A DNA stretch of 60,422 nt from an uncultured Planctomycetaceae bacterium (GTDB taxonomy: Bacteria; Planctomycetota; Planctomycetia; Planctomycetales; Planctomycetaceae). The stretch spans positions 1 through 60,422 of the forward strand of contig CAIQIE010000218.1 of NCBI GenBank assembly GCA_903871805.1, in the 5' to 3' direction. The translations under genes and the position numbers were made by a program. The notes below the pieces were generated by a model. It was not told the DNA's origin. It was given only the letters and a program-made list of their open reading frames with translations, and did no database searches. Positions 7,630 through 17,452 of this stretch are shown here, piece by piece (within the stretch, counting starts at the first letter, position 1; every line of letters starts with the position of its first letter).

Positions 7630-8490
7630 GACGCTGGAGATTCTCCTTGATGACGAACGCCCCTCACCCGATCAGCCGATCAATGCGGCCATGGCACTCT
7701 GTGAGTATAGTGGCGAAGCTCTGCAACGGCTTACGCGGCTGATGACACGAGCCTCCGCCCGGTAAATGACGATTCTGTTTTCAGTGACTGAAAAGGAGAA
7801 AGTCGGGTTGGTGCGGAATGATTTGATCAAGGTGATTTGTGAGCAGTCTCGCGAGGATTTCCGTCAGCGGGATCGCGTGCGTCTGGGCCGTCGTCTGGGC
7901 CGTCGTCGCGCAATCGGCAATTGCCCTGCTGCGGCAGGGTGAACGCAGGGACTACTTTGAGATTTTTTCGGTTGCCAATACTCCGGAAACGCCCAGCCTG
8001 TTTGTTGCGCGGTGCCCGCAGTGGAGGCACCGTGGTCGATCTGCGACCAGAACGGGAAGGCTTTCGTATGCCAACAGAGTCAGAATGGGAGCTGGCAGCC
8101 CGTGGTGGACAAAGCACCGCCTATGCATTTGGTGGGGATGTCGAACTGCTGGTCGATTACGGATGGTACGATCGGAATGCAATGAAACGTCCCCACCCCA
8201 CCGCAAAAAAACGGCCCACAATTAGTGGCCTTTATGACGCTCACGGCAATCTTTACGAATGGACCTTTGATCGCATCGATCAGCCGCAGTTGCCATCGTT
8301 GCTCGTTGACTTCCTCGGCAGTGAAGTTGGCAACGGCCGCATCCTGCGGGGGGGCAGCTGGTCGTATGCCGCGGATCGATCTCGGTCGGCCTATCGTGAT
8401 GACGATGATCCATACAGCAGCGGTTCCAGTTTCGGCTTTCGGCTTGCACTGACCCCCTCTGAGCTCCCCGTGAGCATTAAGGGTGACTGA
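7630..8490 (+). pseudogene. Decayed formylglycine-generating-enzyme (FGE-sulfatase) domain gene
   Basis: Plus-strand fragments in different frames read as one broken large protein. PTLEILLDDERPSPDQPINA and AALCEYSGEALQRL-like helical repeat text ends at a TAA near 7763. SAIALLRQGERRDYFEIFSV follows at about 7908-7990. From about 8030 comes a continuous C-terminal FGE-sulfatase domain: GFRMPTESEWELAARGG, SGLYDAHGNLYEWTFDR, ILRGGSWSYAADRSRSAYRD and SSFGFRLAL. These match the C-terminal half of the FGE/SUMF1 fold as found at the end of large planctomycete kinase- or HEAT-like fusion proteins. The N-terminal half of the FGE domain is missing, so an internal deletion plus frameshifts is inferred. 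It probably makes no functional product. Confidence 0.7.
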
Positions 8491-8667
8491 TGCGGAATTC
8501 ACACGCAGCAGCCAGCATTCCGAAACTCGGACGTTCGCAAAAAAATGTGGCGTTCATTCATCGATCCGATACCTCGAAGCGACCGGGGTGGTCCAGACCT
8601 TCGGCAGATCCTCACGGCGTGCGACCGTGTCGTTCGGAAACCTGCGCGCGATGCCGGCTGGCCGGTT

Positions 8668-9807
8668 TTACCTGTGAAGAATCCCGGTGCGAGTCACCTT
8701 TGACCATTCGTGCTCCCACGTCATCTCGTCCCGCTGCATCATGGTCGTGGCATTACGAGACATCTGTTCCACAGCGTCTCGGTTCATCAGCAAATGCGTC
8801 ATGGCCGAGACCAGACTCTGTACATTCAAATCGTTCTCGATGATCAGACCAACGTGATTTTGTGAAATCTGATCCGGAAACTCACCGACATTCGTGGCAA
8901 TCACCGGCATACCCAGAGCGAAGTACTCATATAACTTCGTACAATTAGTACCGACCAGTTGATAACGCGGTGTCCCGGCCAGCATCGCCAGTCCCACGCA
9001 CTGTCGCTGCGAGGCAAACGTCCGAAAAAACTCGGGCGTGACCCCATTGTGGACAGCCACCCCTGAACGCTGCCGAAGGGATTCGATCAAAGCGGCATCA
9101 CCCTCACCAAAAATATGCAGCTCCGCCTGCTGCTGCAGTGACGGGGCCAGGTTCAGGAAGGCTTCTGCTGCAGCTCCGCAGCCTTTTTCGACGTACACAC
9201 CTCCGATGTAGACAAAGCAAAGCCGATCGGAGACAAGAGGCTGCCTGACTGTTTTCCGCCAGATTGAAGAAGGGTAGTTATGCATCTCCACCACAGCGGG
9301 CTGCCACCGCTGCAGATGTTTCAGCAGTGTCTGACGCCACTGATGGATACAGGTCACAAGCGTCACATGCGGGAGGCACAGGCGATGAATCCAGCGCACA
9401 ACGTTGCTGAACAGCCTGACCTTGAAGAGAGCTCCTGTGCCCTCCAGGGTATTCATTTCATAGTGGTCATGCTCATCGTACACGACAGGAATTCGGGATA
9501 GCCATCCTCGCACTATGGCCAGCGGAAGTACCGACCAGTGAAAACAGAAGACCGCAGTCAGGCGACTGTTCGATGTGTCGCCGATTTCCGCTGATGTTCG
9601 AGTTGTCTTCAGCACATTCAGTGGCCGCTCCGTCTTGTCCAGCACCCATCGATGCCTGGGTAGCGAAAATACACGAACACCGAAACCATCATCCTGAAGG
9701 CATTCCAGAAACATGGCCATCCGTTTGTTAACGATCCTTGACCCGTTCAGGCACAGCACGTATTTTCCGGTACCAGGACTGCCCTGCCCTGCGCCATTGT
9801 CATTCAT
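8668..9807 (-). CDS. Glycosyltransferase family 4 (GT-B fold)
   Basis: About 379 residues. The N-terminal half has a Rossmann-type opening YVLCLNGSRIVNKRMAMFLE, then RIPVVYDEHDHYEMNTLEG, the donor-side equivalent of GT4 proteins. The C-terminal half has the beta-alpha-beta series RLCFVYIGGVYVEKG, ELHIFGEGDAALIESLRQRS, VAVHNGVTPEFFRTFASQR and the nucleotide-sugar motif KLYEYFALGMPVIATNVGEF, with the expected Glu of the EX7E region. It transfers a sugar from an activated donor, probably to a surface polysaccharide or lipid acceptor. ATG 9807 has GGAG nine bases upstream; the frame stays open to 10080, but the extra codons look non-coding. It is downstream of, and co-directional with, the exosortase-TPR gene. 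Confidence 0.85.
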   Translation of the reverse strand: MNDNGAGQGSPGTGKYVLCLNGSRIVNKRMAMFLECLQDDGFGVRVFSLPRHRWVLDKTERPLNVLKTTRTSAEIGDTSNSRLTAVFCFHWSVLPLAIVRGWLSRIPVVYDEHDHYEMNTLEGTGALFKVRLFSNVVRWIHRLCLPHVTLVTCIHQWRQTLLKHLQRWQPAVVEMHNYPSSIWRKTVRQPLVSDRLCFVYIGGVYVEKGCGAAAEAFLNLAPSLQQQAELHIFGEGDAALIESLRQRSGVAVHNGVTPEFFRTFASQRQCVGLAMLAGTPRYQLVGTNCTKLYEYFALGMPVIATNVGEFPDQISQNHVGLIIENDLNVQSLVSAMTHLLMNRDAVEQMSRNATTMMQRDEMTWEHEWSKVTRTGILHR

Positions 9808-10150
9808 GCCACATCGCTCCGTCCCAGCCGCCACCTGAACAGCCCTGACTGCCACCAAACGAGGGTCGATTCCATCTTCGAAAGGCTGCACTGATTTCAC
9901 AGTGACCAGACAGGCACCTGTCAGGGAAATCCTGCCGCACCTGACCACGTCAATCACCCAGTCCGGACTCCATCTGTTATGCTGCAGGTTACCATTTGGA
10001 CGAGTACCTGCCAACCAACAGGGTCTGGGCAGTGGACGGCGGAAGTTCGCTGCAGGAAGAAGTCCTGGACACGCTGACATCTTCTGCTTTCATCTGTTTT
10101 CCTGGTCTGTCGGGATCGCTGCCGAGTTCCTGTCTGACCTTGTCGCTTTT
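9808..10150. other. Gap between exosortase-TPR and glycosyltransferase genes
   Basis: About 340 bases without a recognised gene. The glycosyltransferase frame remains open through most of it, but the encoded residues lack a domain. The region may hold a promoter for the glycosyltransferase; no clear terminator is visible after the exosortase-TPR stop. Confidence 0.4.
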
Positions 10151-13100
10151 TCATTTTTCAGCGTTCAGTGATGTCGCAAGCTCGCGATGTTCCTCCGCCT
10201 TCTGCTTCAACTTCAGTCTTTCATAAGCCTCCGCGATCAACAGGTGCGTCTGTGAATTTGACGAGTCTTCCCTGAGAGACTTCTGCAGTTCCGTAACCGC
10301 ATCGGCAGCTCGCCCCATAATCAGCAGAATTTCTCCCTGAGTCGCCAGCAGGTCCGGATGGTCTGGCACAAGTTCCAGGGCCTGCACGCTGCACTGAAGG
10401 GCTTTCCGCAGATCCCGTTCAGGAGCTTTCAGAATTGCCACGGCAAGATTGTTCAGAATCAGTGGATCCTTTCTCTCCGCGAGTACATTACCCATTTCGA
10501 GGTATTCAATAGCCTGCTGAGGCTGTTTTCTGAGCATTGCTTCCATGCCGGCGATATTAAGAACAGAAACGGCAAGGGTTCCTTCGCTTCGCAACTCCAG
10601 CATCAGAGCATCCGCTCGTCGTGCCAGCGGACCAGTCTCCATGGCCAGGCCACAGATCCGCTGAATGGCAGCGTCCCGTGTGGCCTCCGTTGTCGTCGCC
10701 GTTTTCAGCAGACTCATCAATTTCGGATAGTCTGCTCTTTCAACACCCTTCAACACGAACTCAGACATCGCGGGGGAACCGGGAATTGCTTTTTCGGGCG
10801 AATATCCCGTCTTCTGGTCAAACAACGCCAGACTTGCGCTGGCCCGCATGGATTTTAGTTTCGCGTTCCACTCCGGAGTGACAAGGGCAGAGTCCGGAGC
10901 AGCCCGAAGTTGCTGATTCAGATACAACAATGCCTCTTCGGAACGATGAATCATTATCAGGGAATCGACATAGACCTTCATTAATGACACATCCTCCGGT
11001 GCCACGGAAAGGACCTTCAGGCAGTCCGCGGCCAGAGCCGCAAGAACCTGCTCTGCATCCGACTGCTGTCCTGCCTGCAACTGGTACTGAGCCAGTTGAA
11101 AACGGAACCCCGGAGTCTGCTCAGCCACAGGCTTCAGTACCCGAATGGCTTCGGCAAAATCCCCGATCGCCGCCAATATCCTGCTGAGCAGGTAAGCAGA
11201 CTGAACATTCAGGACATTTGTTTCAAGGTTACTCCGGAGTGATGCGATCGTGGCTTCCACGTCAGCTGCCGAAAAACTCACACCGCCGGCATGGACCTGT
11301 AACAGCAGCTCCGCAGCCTCCTGATCTGCCGGCGTTCGACGCAGGGCACCCAATATAGTCCTCATCGCCGAAAGACCGGCAAGCGAGGAGACGCTCAACT
11401 TACGACGACAGTCAGCGATGTCCATGTTCGTCAGCATTTTCCGCAGACGCTCATCGTTGCTTTTGCCAAGTAATTTCGTCAGCAGATTTCGAGCTTCCGA
11501 TTCACGGTCTGCAAGAATCCATGCCTCGGCCAGCGCACAGACTCGGTCAATACTCAGTGGATCTTCTTCAAGCCTCTGCTCCAGTGCGGGAATGGATGCC
11601 AGCACACTGCTCTGGACAGTCTCCGGCGATCGATTCAGCTTTTTCTGAAGACGAGCCAGCACCAGATATTGTTCCGGCTGCGTCTCCACAACCTTCTGAA
11701 GCCATTTTTCTGCCAGGGCTCCCTCATTCTGCTGCTCATAAAACAGAGCCCTCAGTCGAAATTGATCCGAGCCCGATGGATTCTCGTCGTCGGCAAGACT
11801 CAACTGCCGGTAGATTTCCTCAGGATCAAGCCGGCAGTATGGCTTCTCTGACAGAGACTGCTCAACAAGCCAAAGACGCGCCGGGCCGTATCCTGTGCCC
11901 CGCTCCGAACTCAGCCCCCGCATAAGCTCCAGCCCCATCTGAATATCACCCATCCGAACAAGGAGCAATGCCTGCTGAAACCTCCGGCCCGGTGGATCGC
12001 CTTCCAATGAACTCAGGGCAGCCAGCAGTAATCGCTGCCTCTCCATATCACCTGCGTTTCGTGCTGTGATCAGAAGACTCTCCAGTTTGGCATGAATCTC
12101 TGTCTCCGTTAGCTGTGGAAACTTAAGCCCAGTAAGCAAAACACAGAAAAACGGTATCGCTGCCAGCAATTTCAGCAGTCGTCGTGAGAAATACCACTTC
12201 GTGAAAAAAGCTTTGACGGATCGCATGCAGGCCCTGAGCCGATTTCGCCTTCCCGAATTTGATGCAACGGTCTCACCATCGCCTGAACGCAGTGCCATGG
12301 CCGCCCTTTTTTCCCGGCGGTCCGCTGCCTTTCCTGATGTATGACCGAACAGCCAGTTCCAGAAATCAATCAGTGGATTCCGAACAACATCCTCAATCTT
12401 TCTTTCCCGAATCTCCGGAACCCTGTCTGTCAGAAAATCTCCGACACCGCAGACTGAGGCCAGCATAATCCAGCCTGCAAACATCCCGATGATTCCCCAG
12501 ATTCCATCAAGCCACGAATTCGGAGATGTCAGCGGACGGGGAGCCTGCAAAACCACGACCATCAGAATACGGACTACTGCCACCAGACGGCCGATCAAAA
12601 CGGCTGCCGGCAGATACCACAACAGGTTTCCCAGAGGCCTGCGATTCAAAACGAACAAAATTCCGCTGAACAGCACAAACATCTCTATGGAAGGAAATCG
12701 ATCAGATCCCGCGTAAAGAATCCCGCTCGACTCGCAGGACAAAAACATCCCATCAGCCCGATAATGTTCAATCCCAAGCCCAAACAACATCCGGCTCGCC
12801 GATGCCTCAGACTGGACCACCAGGCCCTGCATACGATTCTGCACGGATAGTTGGGTCAGCAGATATGCAAGGACCGGTACCAGCAACACATCTCGCAATG
12901 GGCGACTGCCTGTCTCTCTGCGCCAACGCCGATAAGTCACCAGCACTGCCGCAACAGAACTAATAGCCATCAGGCCTGGAAGTTTCACAAACGAACCAAC
13001 AGCCAGACACAACGCGATCAGCAATTCAATTCTGCCAATCGAAGCCATCGAACACTTTGCAGCATCATCACGCCGGATAAACAGCATTGCCAATGTGGCA

Positions 13101-13252
13101 AGAAGGCCAATCAATGGTACTGTAAGGCGAGAACCTGAGTACAACTGAAAAAGTAACTGCAGTACTACGGGAATCGACATGACCAACAGAACTGGCCCGA
13201 AAATTCCAGCAGACTGAATTCGAAGTGTTGCTGAAAATGGAAAAAGTTTCAT
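10151..13252 (-). CDS. Exosortase-like membrane protease fused to TPR domain
   Basis: About 1,033 residues. Residues 1-280 (from ATG 13252) form about eight membrane helices. The pattern GMFLSCESSGILYA, with a Cys at about 173, followed about 55 residues later by GRLVAVVRILMVVVLQ, with an Arg at about 228, matches the catalytic Cys and Arg blocks of exosortase/archaeosortase transpeptidases that process PEP-CTERM proteins. The third block reads SWLDGIWGIIGMFAGW, where the usual His appears to be Asp. A further hydrophobic segment (AAIPFFCVLLTGL) precedes a long helical TPR-like region up to the C-terminus (PLILNNLAVAILKAPERDLR, HPDLLATQGEILLIMGRAAD). ATG 13252 has GGGGA upstream; an ATG at 13333 is an alternative. 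The divergent neighbour encodes a PEP-CTERM protein, its likely substrate. Confidence 0.75.
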   Translation of the reverse strand: MKLFPFSATLRIQSAGIFGPVLLVMSIPVVLQLLFQLYSGSRLTVPLIGLLATLAMLFIRRDDAAKCSMASIGRIELLIALCLAVGSFVKLPGLMAISSVAAVLVTYRRWRRETGSRPLRDVLLVPVLAYLLTQLSVQNRMQGLVVQSEASASRMLFGLGIEHYRADGMFLSCESSGILYAGSDRFPSIEMFVLFSGILFVLNRRPLGNLLWYLPAAVLIGRLVAVVRILMVVVLQAPRPLTSPNSWLDGIWGIIGMFAGWIMLASVCGVGDFLTDRVPEIRERKIEDVVRNPLIDFWNWLFGHTSGKAADRREKRAAMALRSGDGETVASNSGRRNRLRACMRSVKAFFTKWYFSRRLLKLLAAIPFFCVLLTGLKFPQLTETEIHAKLESLLITARNAGDMERQRLLLAALSSLEGDPPGRRFQQALLLVRMGDIQMGLELMRGLSSERGTGYGPARLWLVEQSLSEKPYCRLDPEEIYRQLSLADDENPSGSDQFRLRALFYEQQNEGALAEKWLQKVVETQPEQYLVLARLQKKLNRSPETVQSSVLASIPALEQRLEEDPLSIDRVCALAEAWILADRESEARNLLTKLLGKSNDERLRKMLTNMDIADCRRKLSVSSLAGLSAMRTILGALRRTPADQEAAELLLQVHAGGVSFSAADVEATIASLRSNLETNVLNVQSAYLLSRILAAIGDFAEAIRVLKPVAEQTPGFRFQLAQYQLQAGQQSDAEQVLAALAADCLKVLSVAPEDVSLMKVYVDSLIMIHRSEEALLYLNQQLRAAPDSALVTPEWNAKLKSMRASASLALFDQKTGYSPEKAIPGSPAMSEFVLKGVERADYPKLMSLLKTATTTEATRDAAIQRICGLAMETGPLARRADALMLELRSEGTLAVSVLNIAGMEAMLRKQPQQAIEYLEMGNVLAERKDPLILNNLAVAILKAPERDLRKALQCSVQALELVPDHPDLLATQGEILLIMGRAADAVTELQKSLREDSSNSQTHLLIAEAYERLKLKQKAEEHRELATSLNAEK

Positions 13253-14040
13253 CGCAACGCTGTCCCCAAAACCATTTCGAAATGCAGCACCCTCGAGTCC
13301 CACAAACAAAATTTGCTCATCAACGCAGTCCATTTTCGCTGAAAAATTGACACTTTAGAGCAAACATAAAACGATCTTCGCTGTCCGGTGCAAATCGATA
13401 GTCATCGCTGCGCAGTTGGGGATCTCTGTTCGGTGTTCTCAAAAATCAAGGGATTCCCGCCTGCGTGGAAATGACGCTCCAGGGGTTGGCACAGCCAGCC
13501 GAAGTTTTTCAACAGGCTGTTCATGCACACGGGGCTTCCACCACATTTCAGTGCTCGATGTCGCCGCAGCGATTCCTGCAGATCCTGAATTACTGGAACC
13601 TGCATCAAATGCAATACTCCTACCCAATGCTCACTGGGTGATTTCACGAACTGTGCCCGGCACGCATCAGTACTGCAGTCTTGTTGCCAAAATGCGGCAG
13701 TGCGTTGTAGGGACCCCACAGTCCGGAAAGTACCGAGAGAACCCAAAAAACATCGCGATTGTTTTTCTGCGACGACGAAACGGCAAAATCATTGCAATCG
13801 TTAAAATCGCAATGCCGAAGGTGAGGGCTACAACGGTTCTGACGAACAGCGAAGTTAATACCGGACAACCGAAACAGATTCCTTAATCTTCGAGATTGCT
13901 ACAACTGTCGCACTCCATCTATATGAACGGCAAGCTACGGACGCGTTGCCTGCGGATTGGATCGCTGCAGAAAGCCACACGAAGTGTGTCTCGCGTCGTC
14001 GCGAAACGTTTTTTCTCCCCGGAAACGACGGCCCCGCAAC
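13253..14040. other. Divergent intergenic region between exosortase and PEP-CTERM genes
   Basis: About 790 bases that should hold both divergent promoters. Possible N-terminal codons of the exosortase gene extend to 13333, and a TTG-started extension of the PEP-CTERM frame to 13957. One REP-like hairpin lies inside. No other gene is supported: the short open frames on both strands have no recognised domain. Confidence 0.5.
13453..13472. repeat. Degenerate REP-like palindrome
   Basis: ATTCCCGC-CTGC-GTGGAAAT is an imperfect inverted repeat of the widespread type whose minus-strand translation gives FPRRRES, which is present here. GTTTTTCAACAGGCTGTT follows about 35 bases later, a sequence often near mobile-element ends. 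One copy is visible in this window. Confidence 0.55.
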
Positions 14041-15687
14041 ATGTCAGCATTACTCCAATTTCTCCGCCAGCGCACAAGAAGCAATTCGTCGCGTTTCAGA
14101 AGCGTTTTTGCTGCCCTGTTCGTTCTTTCCGGTCTGATCGATGCCAGCACTGCCAAAGCCGGCATCGTTATTCGGCAGTATTCCGCCCCGATAACTGGAG
14201 GTAATGCTTCGGCAATCATTCGAACGTCGCCGGGTGGCAATGCACCAGTGCTTGCCAAACCTATTTCTGCAACGGCGACTCCCTCGCTTCCCAAGCCAGA
14301 TCCCACCGGTACGACGCCTTCTCTTCCGAAACCAGAGCCCACCGGTACGACTCCTTCTCTTCCCAAACCAGAGCCCACCGGTACGACTCCTTCTCTTCCC
14401 AAACCAGATCCCACCGGCACGACTCCCTCTCTTCCGAAGCCAGAGCCCATCGGCACGACTCCCTCTCTTCCGAAACCAGATCCCACCGGCACGACTCCCT
14501 CTCTTCCGAAACCAGAGCCCACCGGCACGACTCCCTCTCTTCCGAAACCAGATCCCACCGGCACGACTCCCTCTCTTCCGAAACCAGAGCCCACCGGCAC
14601 GACTCCATCTCTTCCGAAACCAGATCCCACCGGCACGACTCCTTCTCTTCCGAAACCAGAGCCCACCGGTACGACGCCTTCTCTTCCGAAGCCAGACACC
14701 AATCCGGCGCCAAACACGTCACTGACGGATCCCCTCGAAGAAATTGGGGCCGACCAGCCGATTATCCCCGTTCCTGACGCTGGTCCAACGGCCCCAGAGA
14801 GCATCGTCTCTGCTGGCAGCCAGGGCGGCGACTCGGGAAAGAACGTCAACGACTTATCGTATGGAGATAACGGCACGATAGCATCCGGCAGTCCTGTCAA
14901 CGAAGCAGCACCAGTTGATCATACGAACAGTGGCAGCTCAAACGTCGCAGCAGAGCCCGACAACAGCGGCAGTTCGGGAAAGAACAACGACGAAGCTACC
15001 TACGGTGACAACGGTACGGAACCATCCGACATCCCTGTCAACGAAGCAGCACCAGTTGATCATACGAGCAGTGGCAGCTCAAACGTCGCAGCAGAGCCCG
15101 ACAGCAGCGGCAGTTCGGGAAAGAACGACGACGGAGCTACCTACGGTGACAACGGTACGGAACCACCCGGCGATCTGGGTGACGTGGGGGATACTGGAGG
15201 TTACGGGGGGCTGGGTGATGGTTCGGTGAGTGGTAGCGCCGACGATGCTGCGGAGACCTACTACGGGGATGACGACGACGGTAAAAGTAACAGTGGCAGT
15301 GGAAAGGGTGACTACATCGGTGATCTGTTCTCTGACTACAACGGCAGCTATGACGTCATCTACAGTCCCGGGACAGATTTTACGAATTACCCAACCTACG
15401 ATGATGACCCGGGCGAAGGCGATGAGTATTCGGATTCCTACCTGTCGGGCACAACGTACTACGGCACGAAGCCAGCCGGTGTTCTTGACCTTTATTCGGA
15501 ACTCGAAGAACTGAAGGGCAATGGATATAAGTCCGGTAACTATGCAATGGGCTATTCAACCTACGCAACACCAGTCCCAGAGCCCTCGCTGCACATGGCG
15601 ACGGTCCTTGCATTACTCGGATTGGGGATTGAGCGAATCAGGCGTCGGCTGAGAAACCATTCAATGGTTGAAATGAGACCGGCATAG
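14041..15687 (+). CDS. Repeat-rich secreted protein with PEP-CTERM sorting signal
   Basis: 548 residues. The order is: a basic N-terminus and signal peptide (FRSVFAALFVLSGLIDASTA, cleavage probably after AKA near residue 40); a short domain; eleven full copies and one partial copy of a 12-residue Pro-rich repeat (PSLPKPDPTGTT / PSLPKPEPTGTT); an acidic Gly/Ser region with about 2.7 copies of a 47-residue repeat; a Gly/Asp/Tyr-rich stretch; then the C-terminal signal PVPEPSLHMATVLALLGLG followed by the basic tail IERIRRRLRN. That VPEP-helix-Arg tripartite end is the PEP-CTERM motif cleaved by exosortases. No enzymatic domain is seen, so an extended surface or matrix protein is inferred. ATG 14041 starts the signal peptide directly; an upstream TTG at 13957 is less likely. 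It is divergent from the exosortase-TPR gene. Confidence 0.85.
   Translation: MSALLQFLRQRTRSNSSRFRSVFAALFVLSGLIDASTAKAGIVIRQYSAPITGGNASAIIRTSPGGNAPVLAKPISATATPSLPKPDPTGTTPSLPKPEPTGTTPSLPKPEPTGTTPSLPKPDPTGTTPSLPKPEPIGTTPSLPKPDPTGTTPSLPKPEPTGTTPSLPKPDPTGTTPSLPKPEPTGTTPSLPKPDPTGTTPSLPKPEPTGTTPSLPKPDTNPAPNTSLTDPLEEIGADQPIIPVPDAGPTAPESIVSAGSQGGDSGKNVNDLSYGDNGTIASGSPVNEAAPVDHTNSGSSNVAAEPDNSGSSGKNNDEATYGDNGTEPSDIPVNEAAPVDHTSSGSSNVAAEPDSSGSSGKNDDGATYGDNGTEPPGDLGDVGDTGGYGGLGDGSVSGSADDAAETYYGDDDDGKSNSGSGKGDYIGDLFSDYNGSYDVIYSPGTDFTNYPTYDDDPGEGDEYSDSYLSGTTYYGTKPAGVLDLYSELEELKGNGYKSGNYAMGYSTYATPVPEPSLHMATVLALLGLGIERIRRRLRNHSMVEMRPA
14281..14697 (+). repeat. 36-bp coding tandem repeat (11 full units plus one partial)
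   Basis: Each unit encodes PSLPKP(D/E)PTGTT. Counted from 14281, the Asp/Glu position runs D,E,E,D,E,D,E,D,E,D,E and then a partial D unit. From the fourth unit the alternation makes a 72-bp higher-order repeat. The high identity leaves open frames on all other strands and frames, which are artefacts. Confidence 0.95.
14833..15160 (+). repeat. 141-bp coding repeat (about 2.3-2.7 copies)
   Basis: The anchor TCGGGAAAGAAC recurs at about 14833, 14974 and 15115, exactly 141 bases (47 codons) apart. The protein unit includes YGDNGT, PVNEAAPVDHT, SGSSNVAAEPD and SGSSGKN. The third copy decays after EPPG. Confidence 0.9.
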
Positions 15688-16288
15688 CGGGCGATAGGGA
15701 GCAATTGGTTTGGGTAACTCTTTGGGACGGCCGTCAGCCGACGTCTCTGTTGCCTCTCACCCGACGTACTTCTGCGTCTTGTGGAGCCTGGTTTGTGGTG
15801 CAGGCGACGGCAGCTCAGGACGTTGGATTCGAAGGCTCCTGGCACCGATGCGTTTGCTTTTCCTGCCATGGACTTCTGGCATCGCAAGACAGTTCGCCGT
15901 GCATCTTCCTGAAGATGCTGCATCAGGTTGGAACGGGACGCTGCTCGTTGGTAAGAACAGGCGGCGTCAACTTGAGTGTTGATTTCATACTGCCGTTGCG
16001 GAAAACGGCCGATGGACCTTGAAATCAACCCCAAATCCACCGAAAAAAGTGTCCACCAAACCGCTGACCGTTTCCCCGGACGCATAGCGGACTGTAGACT
16101 GCCCACTGACATGCTGCCCCTCGTGAACCATTTTCCGGAGCTTCCGGGAAATGTTTTCTCATGGCAAACATCAGAAACAGACCGGTCGCCTTGATGGACC
16201 GGGACGTAATTGCTGATGTCTTGATCGGCGAACTGCGTTGCTTTCAGTCCCTGGATCAGCAGATAAAACGGTTACGGGAATTCAGAAG
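15688..16288. other. Intergenic region without recognised gene
   Basis: About 600 bases after the PEP-CTERM gene. A 183-codon minus-strand frame crosses it into the PEP-CTERM coding end, but its composition (Ser/Arg-rich, no domain, no ribosome site) argues against a gene. No terminator is obvious. It should contain the promoter of the following lipoprotein gene. Confidence 0.45.
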
Positions 16289-17452
16289 ATGCTATCTGAA
16301 AAATCATTTCCGGCCCCTATTGGGCGGCTGACGTTTTCTTTGGCGACATTTTGTGTGGCATTGATCGGCTGCGGTAAAAGCGAGCTGTCTGAAGAGACTG
16401 CTGTGTCCACTTCGCAACCTGCCGCTCACGACGAGTCTGCGGCTGGACCATCAGAGACACCGGTTGTCGCTGCCGGGAAAAGACGGGCACGCGACGAAGT
16501 ATGGGAGGACGAAAAGGGGCAGAAATGGTTCGGAAACGTCCCCATGGACGTGTTTTTTGATCGGCCGGATGAAGTGGCCGCGAATATGACAGCCATCGGC
16601 GATCAACCCGTGGCCGTTGCGCAGTCCGAAGCTACGATGCCTGCTGAGGCAGAAAAACCTGCTGGTGCTCCCGGAACGGTTGAGTCGCCGCCAACGGAGG
16701 CAACACCCGAGCCGGAGAAAACAGCGATGGAGGTTGCCTCAGACGCACCAGCGGCTGATGCCTGGGAATCTCTGATACCCACGCCAATTCTGGAAGAAGA
16801 AGTAAAGAGTATTCGCAATTTCCTTCAGGAAACTGTCAACTCTGTCGGCAACTACAATTCTTCGATGATGATGATTCCTCCGAAAGTTGCTACGCTTGCA
16901 GCACTCGCTGAAGTTGCCCGACAACAGAAAGAATCTGTCTCGTGGAAAGCAGACGCAAATTATGTCAGAGATCTCGCCGGAAAAATGAACTCCAGCCCAC
17001 TGCAGCGTGGAGCCAAAGATCAGAAGCGATTGCAGGAGTTGTTCGAGAGCATTGCCGACATTCTGAATCGCTCCAAACCCGCAGGCCTCGAAGCACCTCC
17101 GGAAACTGATTCCTTCGCGGAAACCGCAGAGATGCGTTCGCTGATGAAACGCATGGAGGAGGCCGAGAAACTGATGAAGACAGAGATAGCTTCAGCGGAC
17201 GCCCTGGGCAGCAGGAAAGCTATGGTGGCCCACGAAGCATCAGTCCTGGGGGTCCTCGCGAAGATTGTAACTCAACCCGGGTATGGGTACGAGGAGGATG
17301 CGGAATTCAAAGGCTATGCCAACGGAATTGTCCAGGCCACACAGAATCTGAAGAACGCATCGGAAGGGGGAGACTTTTCGGGGTTTGAAGCCGCCATGTC
17401 CGGCATCGCCACCAATTGTCAGAACTGCCATTCAAAGTACAAGAATGACTGA
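16289..17452 (+). CDS. Lipoprotein with C-terminal c-type haem site
   Basis: 387 residues. A signal peptide ends in the lipobox VALIGC (lipidated Cys about 28), then a Glu/Ala/Pro-rich disordered linker to about residue 165. An alpha-helical domain follows, ending in NCQNCHSKYK with CxxCH at about 377-381, four residues from the stop region. A four-helix domain with a single CxxCH at the extreme C-terminus is the arrangement of cytochrome c-prime-like proteins, so this is probably a periplasm-facing, membrane-anchored monohaem cytochrome. WEDEKGQKWFGNVPMDVFFD near residue 75 is a distinctive conserved-looking block of unknown role. The in-frame TTG at 16238 is less likely than this ATG. Redox partner unknown. 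Confidence 0.7.
   Translation: MLSEKSFPAPIGRLTFSLATFCVALIGCGKSELSEETAVSTSQPAAHDESAAGPSETPVVAAGKRRARDEVWEDEKGQKWFGNVPMDVFFDRPDEVAANMTAIGDQPVAVAQSEATMPAEAEKPAGAPGTVESPPTEATPEPEKTAMEVASDAPAADAWESLIPTPILEEEVKSIRNFLQETVNSVGNYNSSMMMIPPKVATLAALAEVARQQKESVSWKADANYVRDLAGKMNSSPLQRGAKDQKRLQELFESIADILNRSKPAGLEAPPETDSFAETAEMRSLMKRMEEAEKLMKTEIASADALGSRKAMVAHEASVLGVLAKIVTQPGYGYEEDAEFKGYANGIVQATQNLKNASEGGDFSGFEAAMSGIATNCQNCHSKYKND

Follow-up and report, generated by a model that had tools for sequence, protein, structure and literature searches.

Exosortases (EpsH; PF09721, TIGR02602, TIGR04178) are defined by an invariant set of Cys, Arg and His residues, and genome surveys count them as sorting enzymes. 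The accessible text of PMC1569441 defines the family by Cys-X-Gly, Asn-X-X-Arg and His-X-X-X-Gly motifs with an invariant Cys, and the same three residues are named in that of PMC4343526. Here we describe a variant of such a protein, encoded on the minus strand of a 60,422-nucleotide stretch (the window; contig CAIQIE010000218.1 of assembly GCA_903871805.1) from an uncultured Planctomycetaceae bacterium. It consists of an exosortase-like membrane domain fused to a long C-terminal tetratricopeptide repeat (TPR) region, and is encoded divergently from a repeat-rich PEP-CTERM protein. Sequence comparison indicates that the membrane domain is homologous to exosortases but is without the catalytic Cys and His, and the fusion may act as a docking partner rather than as a protease.

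The fusion resembles an exosortase in its multi-pass domain, its significant profile similarity to canonical domains from the same planctomycete family, the Arg of N-x-x-R and the adjacent PEP-CTERM gene, but differs in having Ser for the CxG Cys, Asp for the HxxxG His, no Asn in N-x-x-R, and scores under the library cut-offs. PrsT (TIGR02917), the TPR protein of the XrtA/PEP-CTERM system, is also tied to an exosortase and is the best NCBIfam match of the fusion; however, this match scores 51.2 bits where the cut-off is 312.2, and in the fusion the TPR is joined to the membrane domain. XrtU (NF033780, a C-terminal model) matches a TPR-linked canonical relative in genome G022 (locus L051; 121.9 bits, cut-off 40), but is absent from the matches of the window protein and from those of a canonical enzyme of the window's genome (L038; all 14 listed). 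Exosortases, PEP-CTERM proteins, TPR partners such as PrsT and XrtU are thus already known; no report of dead exosortases or dead exosortase paralogues was found in the literature searched, with subscription papers mostly outside reach. Among unrelated proteins, iRhoms and other pseudoproteases are dead relatives of intramembrane proteases that have been retained to bind substrates alongside active ones. Their fold is unrelated to that of the fusion, for which they serve as an analogy only.

Results

As an initial sequence-only reading of the window had proposed, a membrane domain and a long C-terminal TPR region are encoded together by a single minus-strand frame (Table 1). The probable start is Met28 (base 13252). 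A crude hydropathy rule predicts seven transmembrane (TM) segments in residues 28-340, and eight in the orthologue from G003. The C-terminal ~690 residues match TPR families in profile libraries. Because a further TM segment with preceding basic residues lies before it, the TPR domain is probably periplasmic.

Kinship of the membrane domain with exosortases was examined with library models and with a profile of 23 canonical domains, that is, domains with the full Cys/Arg/His set, taken from TPR-linked units. By library cut-offs the window protein falls short, with 16.5 bits (E 0.0077) for TIGR04178 against a cut-off of 23 and no match to Pfam EpsH (PF09721), whereas the canonical profile gives 54.7 bits (E 1.6e-17 in a set of 50), the best of 47 reversed decoys reaching 4.7 bits. 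One orthologue barely exceeds the TIGR04178 cut-off (L033, 23.4 bits) and the other is below it (L032, 18.9 bits). Alignment with hhalign of the three window-clade domains to 14 canonical ones gave a probability of 99.1% (E 1e-18, 289 columns). The window domain is full-length, retains the Arg and keeps an NPxxxxWN-type motif that is present in 22 of the 23 canonical and 23 of 47 non-canonical units. Judged by these comparisons, the membrane domain is homologous to exosortases, and the exosortase-TPR fusion first suggested stands in the sense of homology.

Catalytic positions were read from a segment running from HY, HF or HL to RR in eight rows chosen for display, three window-clade proteins and five canonical units. 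Because this segment is 43 residues long in all eight rows and aligns without gaps, the Cys position of the window protein is Ser210; a profile alignment that may place gaps also sets Ser there. Ser occupies this position in both orthologues as well. The His position is Asp276, again with Asp in both orthologues, while Arg255 is retained in all three proteins, in agreement with the Arg block noted at the outset. The window clade keeps the Gly of His-X-X-X-Gly and has lost that of CxG; the Asn of Asn-X-X-Arg is Ala in the window protein and Asn in the two orthologues. An exosortase-type Cys block had also been reported, but the ungapped segment rules out the Cys in SCESSG as the catalytic one: this residue, Cys200, lies 10 residues upstream of the catalytic position and is an extra Cys conserved in the three orthologues. 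The window membrane domain is 37-38% identical to that of each of the two orthologues. By its residues, then, the window fusion is not a catalytically standard exosortase.

An alignment of the TPR domain was used as the query for searches at three taxonomic levels. In the genus, 17 of 18 genomes had a match at E 1e-20, with G001 and G014 giving weak ones only. At least 23 of 170 genomes and at least 5 of 58 genera of the family had one at E 1e-80, and among the candidates scored in an even draw of 392 genomes from the phylum, only those of the window's genome and of G071, which belongs to the same family, matched at E 1e-60. At most six candidates per genome were scored in the family and at most two in the phylum, so that these counts are lower bounds. 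Of 78 TPR matches, 70 could be read as units in which an exosortase-like domain is fused in front or coded just upstream (61, plus a further 6 and another 3 with an overlapping upstream gene). The remaining eight had no readable partner (L070, L073, L078, L101, L103, L109, L110, L114|11238) and lie mostly at contig edges; L103, with 3.7 kb upstream and no exosortase gene in it, is likely a real exception. Left out of the unit set were a false TPR match (L107|1029), weaker or partial matches of the genus search, and two TPR genes of a more distant group at L040. At this last locus (contig C246 of G000, the window's genome) two more canonical exosortases (9723-10886 and 13802-15247) lie near shorter TPR genes of 569 and 590 aa, so that exosortase-TPR proximity is recurrent in this genome.

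A TPR partner, adjacent or fused, is therefore the rule for these exosortases, and the protease-TPR link once thought distinctive is not. What distinguishes them instead, by sequence, is the loss of the catalytic set in most units compared. The full Cys/Arg/His set was found in 23 of the 70 units (7 fused, 16 adjacent) and is incomplete in 47 (24 fused, 23 adjacent). Scored with the canonical profile, 46 of these 47 lie above all reversed decoys. The residue that non-canonical units have at the Cys position is Ser, Thr, Gln, Phe, Leu, Val, Arg, His, Ala or, in some, Cys without the remainder of the set; the Arg is kept in 7 of 45, the three window-clade proteins among them. The exosortase-like partner at L039 (8500-9831, contig C136 of G000) has none of the three catalytic residues, yet matches Pfam EpsH with 30.6 bits against a cut-off of 25.7.

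A quick tree built from 67 TPR domains requires a minimum of four switches between the canonical and the non-canonical state, on branches with Shimodaira-Hasegawa-like approximate likelihood ratio (SH-aLRT) values of 95 or more. The window clade is separate from the other non-canonical clades and lies within a group that also contains canonical units. The window's genome carries one canonical unit (on contig C311) and six non-canonical ones, and the tree recovers the same one-plus-six set, group by group, in G003 and G016. A canonical unit is also present in 10 of the 11 genomes with non-canonical units; the exception, G002, has one further unit that is truncated by the end of its contig. In sister species there are fusions whose catalytic set is intact (L034, L035, L036, L037). 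These were considered as syntenic ancestors of the window locus and rejected, since their neighbours differ from the window's; the sole likeness is a sulfatase of ~23% identity near L034 and L035.

Units of the window type were found in three genomes, G000, G003 and G016. In G003 (CAIYBH010000452.1) the fusion, the divergent PEP-CTERM gene and the genes beyond are collinear with the window over the 16.5 kb read, and the contig ends ahead of any GT4 glycosyltransferase gene. In G016 (JALQWE010000125.1) the fusion is accompanied by a GT4 gene and by a 166-residue N-terminal piece of the PEP-CTERM neighbour. The neighbour is thus complete in the window and G003 and an N-terminal fragment in G016, and of the dedicated enzyme-substrate pair envisaged in the sequence-only reading the conserved divergent pairing is supported but the protease is not, given Cys-to-Ser and His-to-Asp changes in all three proteins.

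Selection was estimated from the ratio of nonsynonymous to synonymous substitution rates (dN/dS). Between G003 and G016, the window-type membrane domain has a ratio of 0.316 (synonymous divergence, dS, 0.43) and its TPR one of 0.134. In the canonical unit from this genome pair, the values are 0.056 for the membrane domain and 0.061 for the TPR (dS 0.41 and 0.44). The range over five further non-canonical pairs is 0.12-0.28, and G007/G008, another canonical pair, gave 0.095. Comparisons with the window itself, at dS above 1.3, give rough values of 0.40-0.47 for the membrane domain and 0.14-0.17 for the TPR. By these ratios the non-canonical genes are maintained yet evolve faster than the canonical unit. 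A decaying pseudogene is ruled out, with the frame open in three orthologues and dN/dS well under 1.

The divergent neighbour had been described as repeat-rich and ending in VPEP-helix-Arg, and this proved correct. Its tail (PVPEPSLHMATVLALLGLGIERIRRRLRN) passes a rule that asks for PEP, then a 14-residue hydrophobic stretch, then at least three basic residues, and the gene is the only complete frame in the window to do so. With a signal-peptide-like segment, likewise by a crude rule of our own, the product fits the PEP-CTERM pattern under these rules. TIGR02595 does not match the tail of the window protein, while the G003 orthologue exceeds its cut-off of 16 with 18.7 and 22.5 bits in two scans.

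In the window's genome, the same tail rule finds a PEP-CTERM gene no more than 6 kb away from four of the seven units (three non-canonical, one canonical). This amounts to four genes in 68,288 flank bases; applied to a control of 596,271 bases, taken from 60 contigs that had been selected by number, the rule finds none (P 1.1e-4); without the window's own gene, which had prompted the search, the same formula gives P ~6e-4. TIGR02595 gave 16 matches across this genome at E up to 10, none of them to the four tails beside TPR-linked units, so that the link is invisible by this model; of its 19 matches in G003, three fall within the flanks of units, one on C452 and two on C245. Conversely, our rule flags neither of two TIGR02595 matches in control contigs C115 and C155. 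Each method therefore misses some of the other's finds. Of the six paralogue groups that G000, G003 and G016 share, three show a firm PEP-CTERM link, as read from sequence; in the rest it is not seen.

At L049 in G003 (8372-17298), the canonical unit and a non-canonical one are oppositely oriented and flank a single PEP-CTERM gene, an arrangement that suggests local duplication as the origin of this non-canonical group. At L091 (1-4150) and L094 (1-2617), non-canonical units lie beside very large frames of 1383 and 872 residues, both clipped by the end of the stretch, whose products resemble surface proteins rich in repeats and are possible clients without a PEP-CTERM tail.

Discussion

The reading we favour, at a probability of about 0.5, is that the fusion is a pseudo-exosortase, a homologue without catalytic activity that is tied to a TPR scaffold and serves as a docking partner while the canonical unit cuts. 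Its homology to canonical units, the absence of Cys and His, the kept Arg, purifying selection between its two close orthologues and the PEP-CTERM gene alongside (a fragment in one species) are read from the sequence comparisons above; the direction of change, the topology, binding and hand-over we infer. The fusion would have descended from a cutting enzyme. Its TPR domain would be placed outside the cytoplasm by the preceding TM segment, on the side where PEP-CTERM proteins would arrive; the accessible text of PMC1569441 holds that the catalytic residues of exosortases are thought to lie on the outer side of the membrane. Membrane domain and TPR would together recognise and dock the PEP-CTERM partner without cleavage, and the partner would then be held at the membrane or presented to the canonical exosortase+TPR unit encoded elsewhere, which would recognise the tail and perform the cleavage.

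Several observations weigh against this proposal. A PEP-CTERM gene lies within 6 kb of only 6 of the 47 non-canonical units and of 6 of the 23 canonical ones, many of the scanned flanks being cut by contig ends, and outside G000 and G003 the rule finds none near non-canonical units, the G016 fragment aside; since the link is confined in this way, docking of the neighbour is not general. The topology of the fusion is derived from hydropathy only, and the structure prediction that had been suggested as a check, run in AlphaFold2 with three sequences each, returned low confidence: the mean predicted local distance difference test (pLDDT) score is 53.3 for the full protein and 40.9 for the membrane domain alone, which is mostly under 50 in both models. 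The tree was made without bootstrap and leaves out three short rows. Two further points, the faster evolution of the membrane domain and the invariance of Ser, Arg and Asp, are also compatible with a plain anchor and with a rewired active site, respectively.

The first of these alternatives takes the domain to be a relic exosortase fold that tethers the TPR scaffold for polysaccharide or surface assembly with the GT4 enzyme, while the canonical enzyme sorts the neighbour without the fusion. The higher dN/dS of the membrane domain than of the TPR would fit a mere tether, as would the lack of a visible PEP-CTERM neighbour at most non-canonical units and the GT4 gene conserved beside the unit in G016. 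However, the domain keeps its full length, the Arg and a motif nearly universal in canonical units, though present in only about half of the non-canonical ones, and an inert tether would have no need to remain close to PEP-CTERM genes across several paralogue groups; we regard this explanation as rather doubtful. That the fusion instead still cuts PEP-CTERM tails, by Ser210 with Arg255 and Asp276 or by a relocated Cys200, seems distinctly unlikely. Each of these residues is invariant in the three orthologues although the window's domain has only 37-38% identity to the other two, and the linked PEP-CTERM partner is retained, but the base is thin, three sequences of which two are close. Moreover, no single residue stands in for the Cys across the other non-canonical groups, and the Arg is kept in just 7 of 45 non-canonical units, these three included; the Gly of CxG is lost, and the models that would place Cys200 are of low confidence. 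An ordinary active exosortase-TPR fusion, as originally proposed, has precedent in the intact fusions of sister species, but with Ser and Asp at the Cys and His positions of all three orthologues it is very improbable.

Extended to the paralogues, the docking proposal would describe a lineage with one cutting TPR-linked exosortase and up to six conserved non-cutting paralogues, each specific for a client, in several cases the PEP-CTERM protein linked to it. A protease family would thereby have been turned, much as rhomboids were into iRhoms, into dedicated membrane receptors or regulators of the active enzyme. This broader picture we put forward tentatively. In any case, 47 of the 70 TPR-linked members in the comparison, or two thirds, lack the set that defines exosortases, yet are open genes conserved across species, and library models would label some of them exosortases, as the L039 partner illustrates. 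If the look-alikes bind PEP-CTERM tails, recognition would be split from cleavage, and nature would have supplied catalytically inactive members as controls in an enzyme family that is mechanistically hard to study.

Other features of the locus

The glycosyltransferase said to lie next door to the fusion was recovered with a Pfam match, and its orthologue beside the unit in G016 is 72% identical. Within the PEP-CTERM frame, a 141-bp repeat in two copies occurs in addition to the 36-bp repeat.

Table 1. Positions in the window of the fusion gene, its parts and its neighbours.
Feature	Position	Strand	Remarks
Exosortase-like membrane domain + TPR fusion	10151..13333	-	1060 aa, single open frame
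Exosortase-like membrane domain, residues 28-340	12314..13252	-	
Cys200 (extra Cys)	12734-12736	-	
Ser210 (Cys position)	12704-12706	-	
Arg255	12569-12571	-	
Asp276 (His position)	12506-12508	-	
Extra TM segment (WYFSRR...LLAAIPFFCVLL), then TPR domain to protein end	10154..12226	-	
GT4 glycosyltransferase adjoining the fusion	8668..10080	-	Pfam Glycos_transf_1, 3.3e-14
Divergent PEP-CTERM protein, Pro-rich 12-aa repeats	13957..15687	+	576 aa open frame, likely start 14041
36-bp tandem repeat encoding TTPSLPKP(D/E)PTG, 11.7 copies	14276..14696	+	
PEP-CTERM tail: PVPEP, hydrophobic helix, Arg-rich end	15571..15684	+	

An antisense frame of 321 aa (13935-14900, minus strand) mirrors the 36-bp repeat and is probably no gene. 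Between the two divergent genes, positions 13416-13470 encode an SRDSRLRGND-like peptide, presumably reminiscent of dispersed palindromic repeats.

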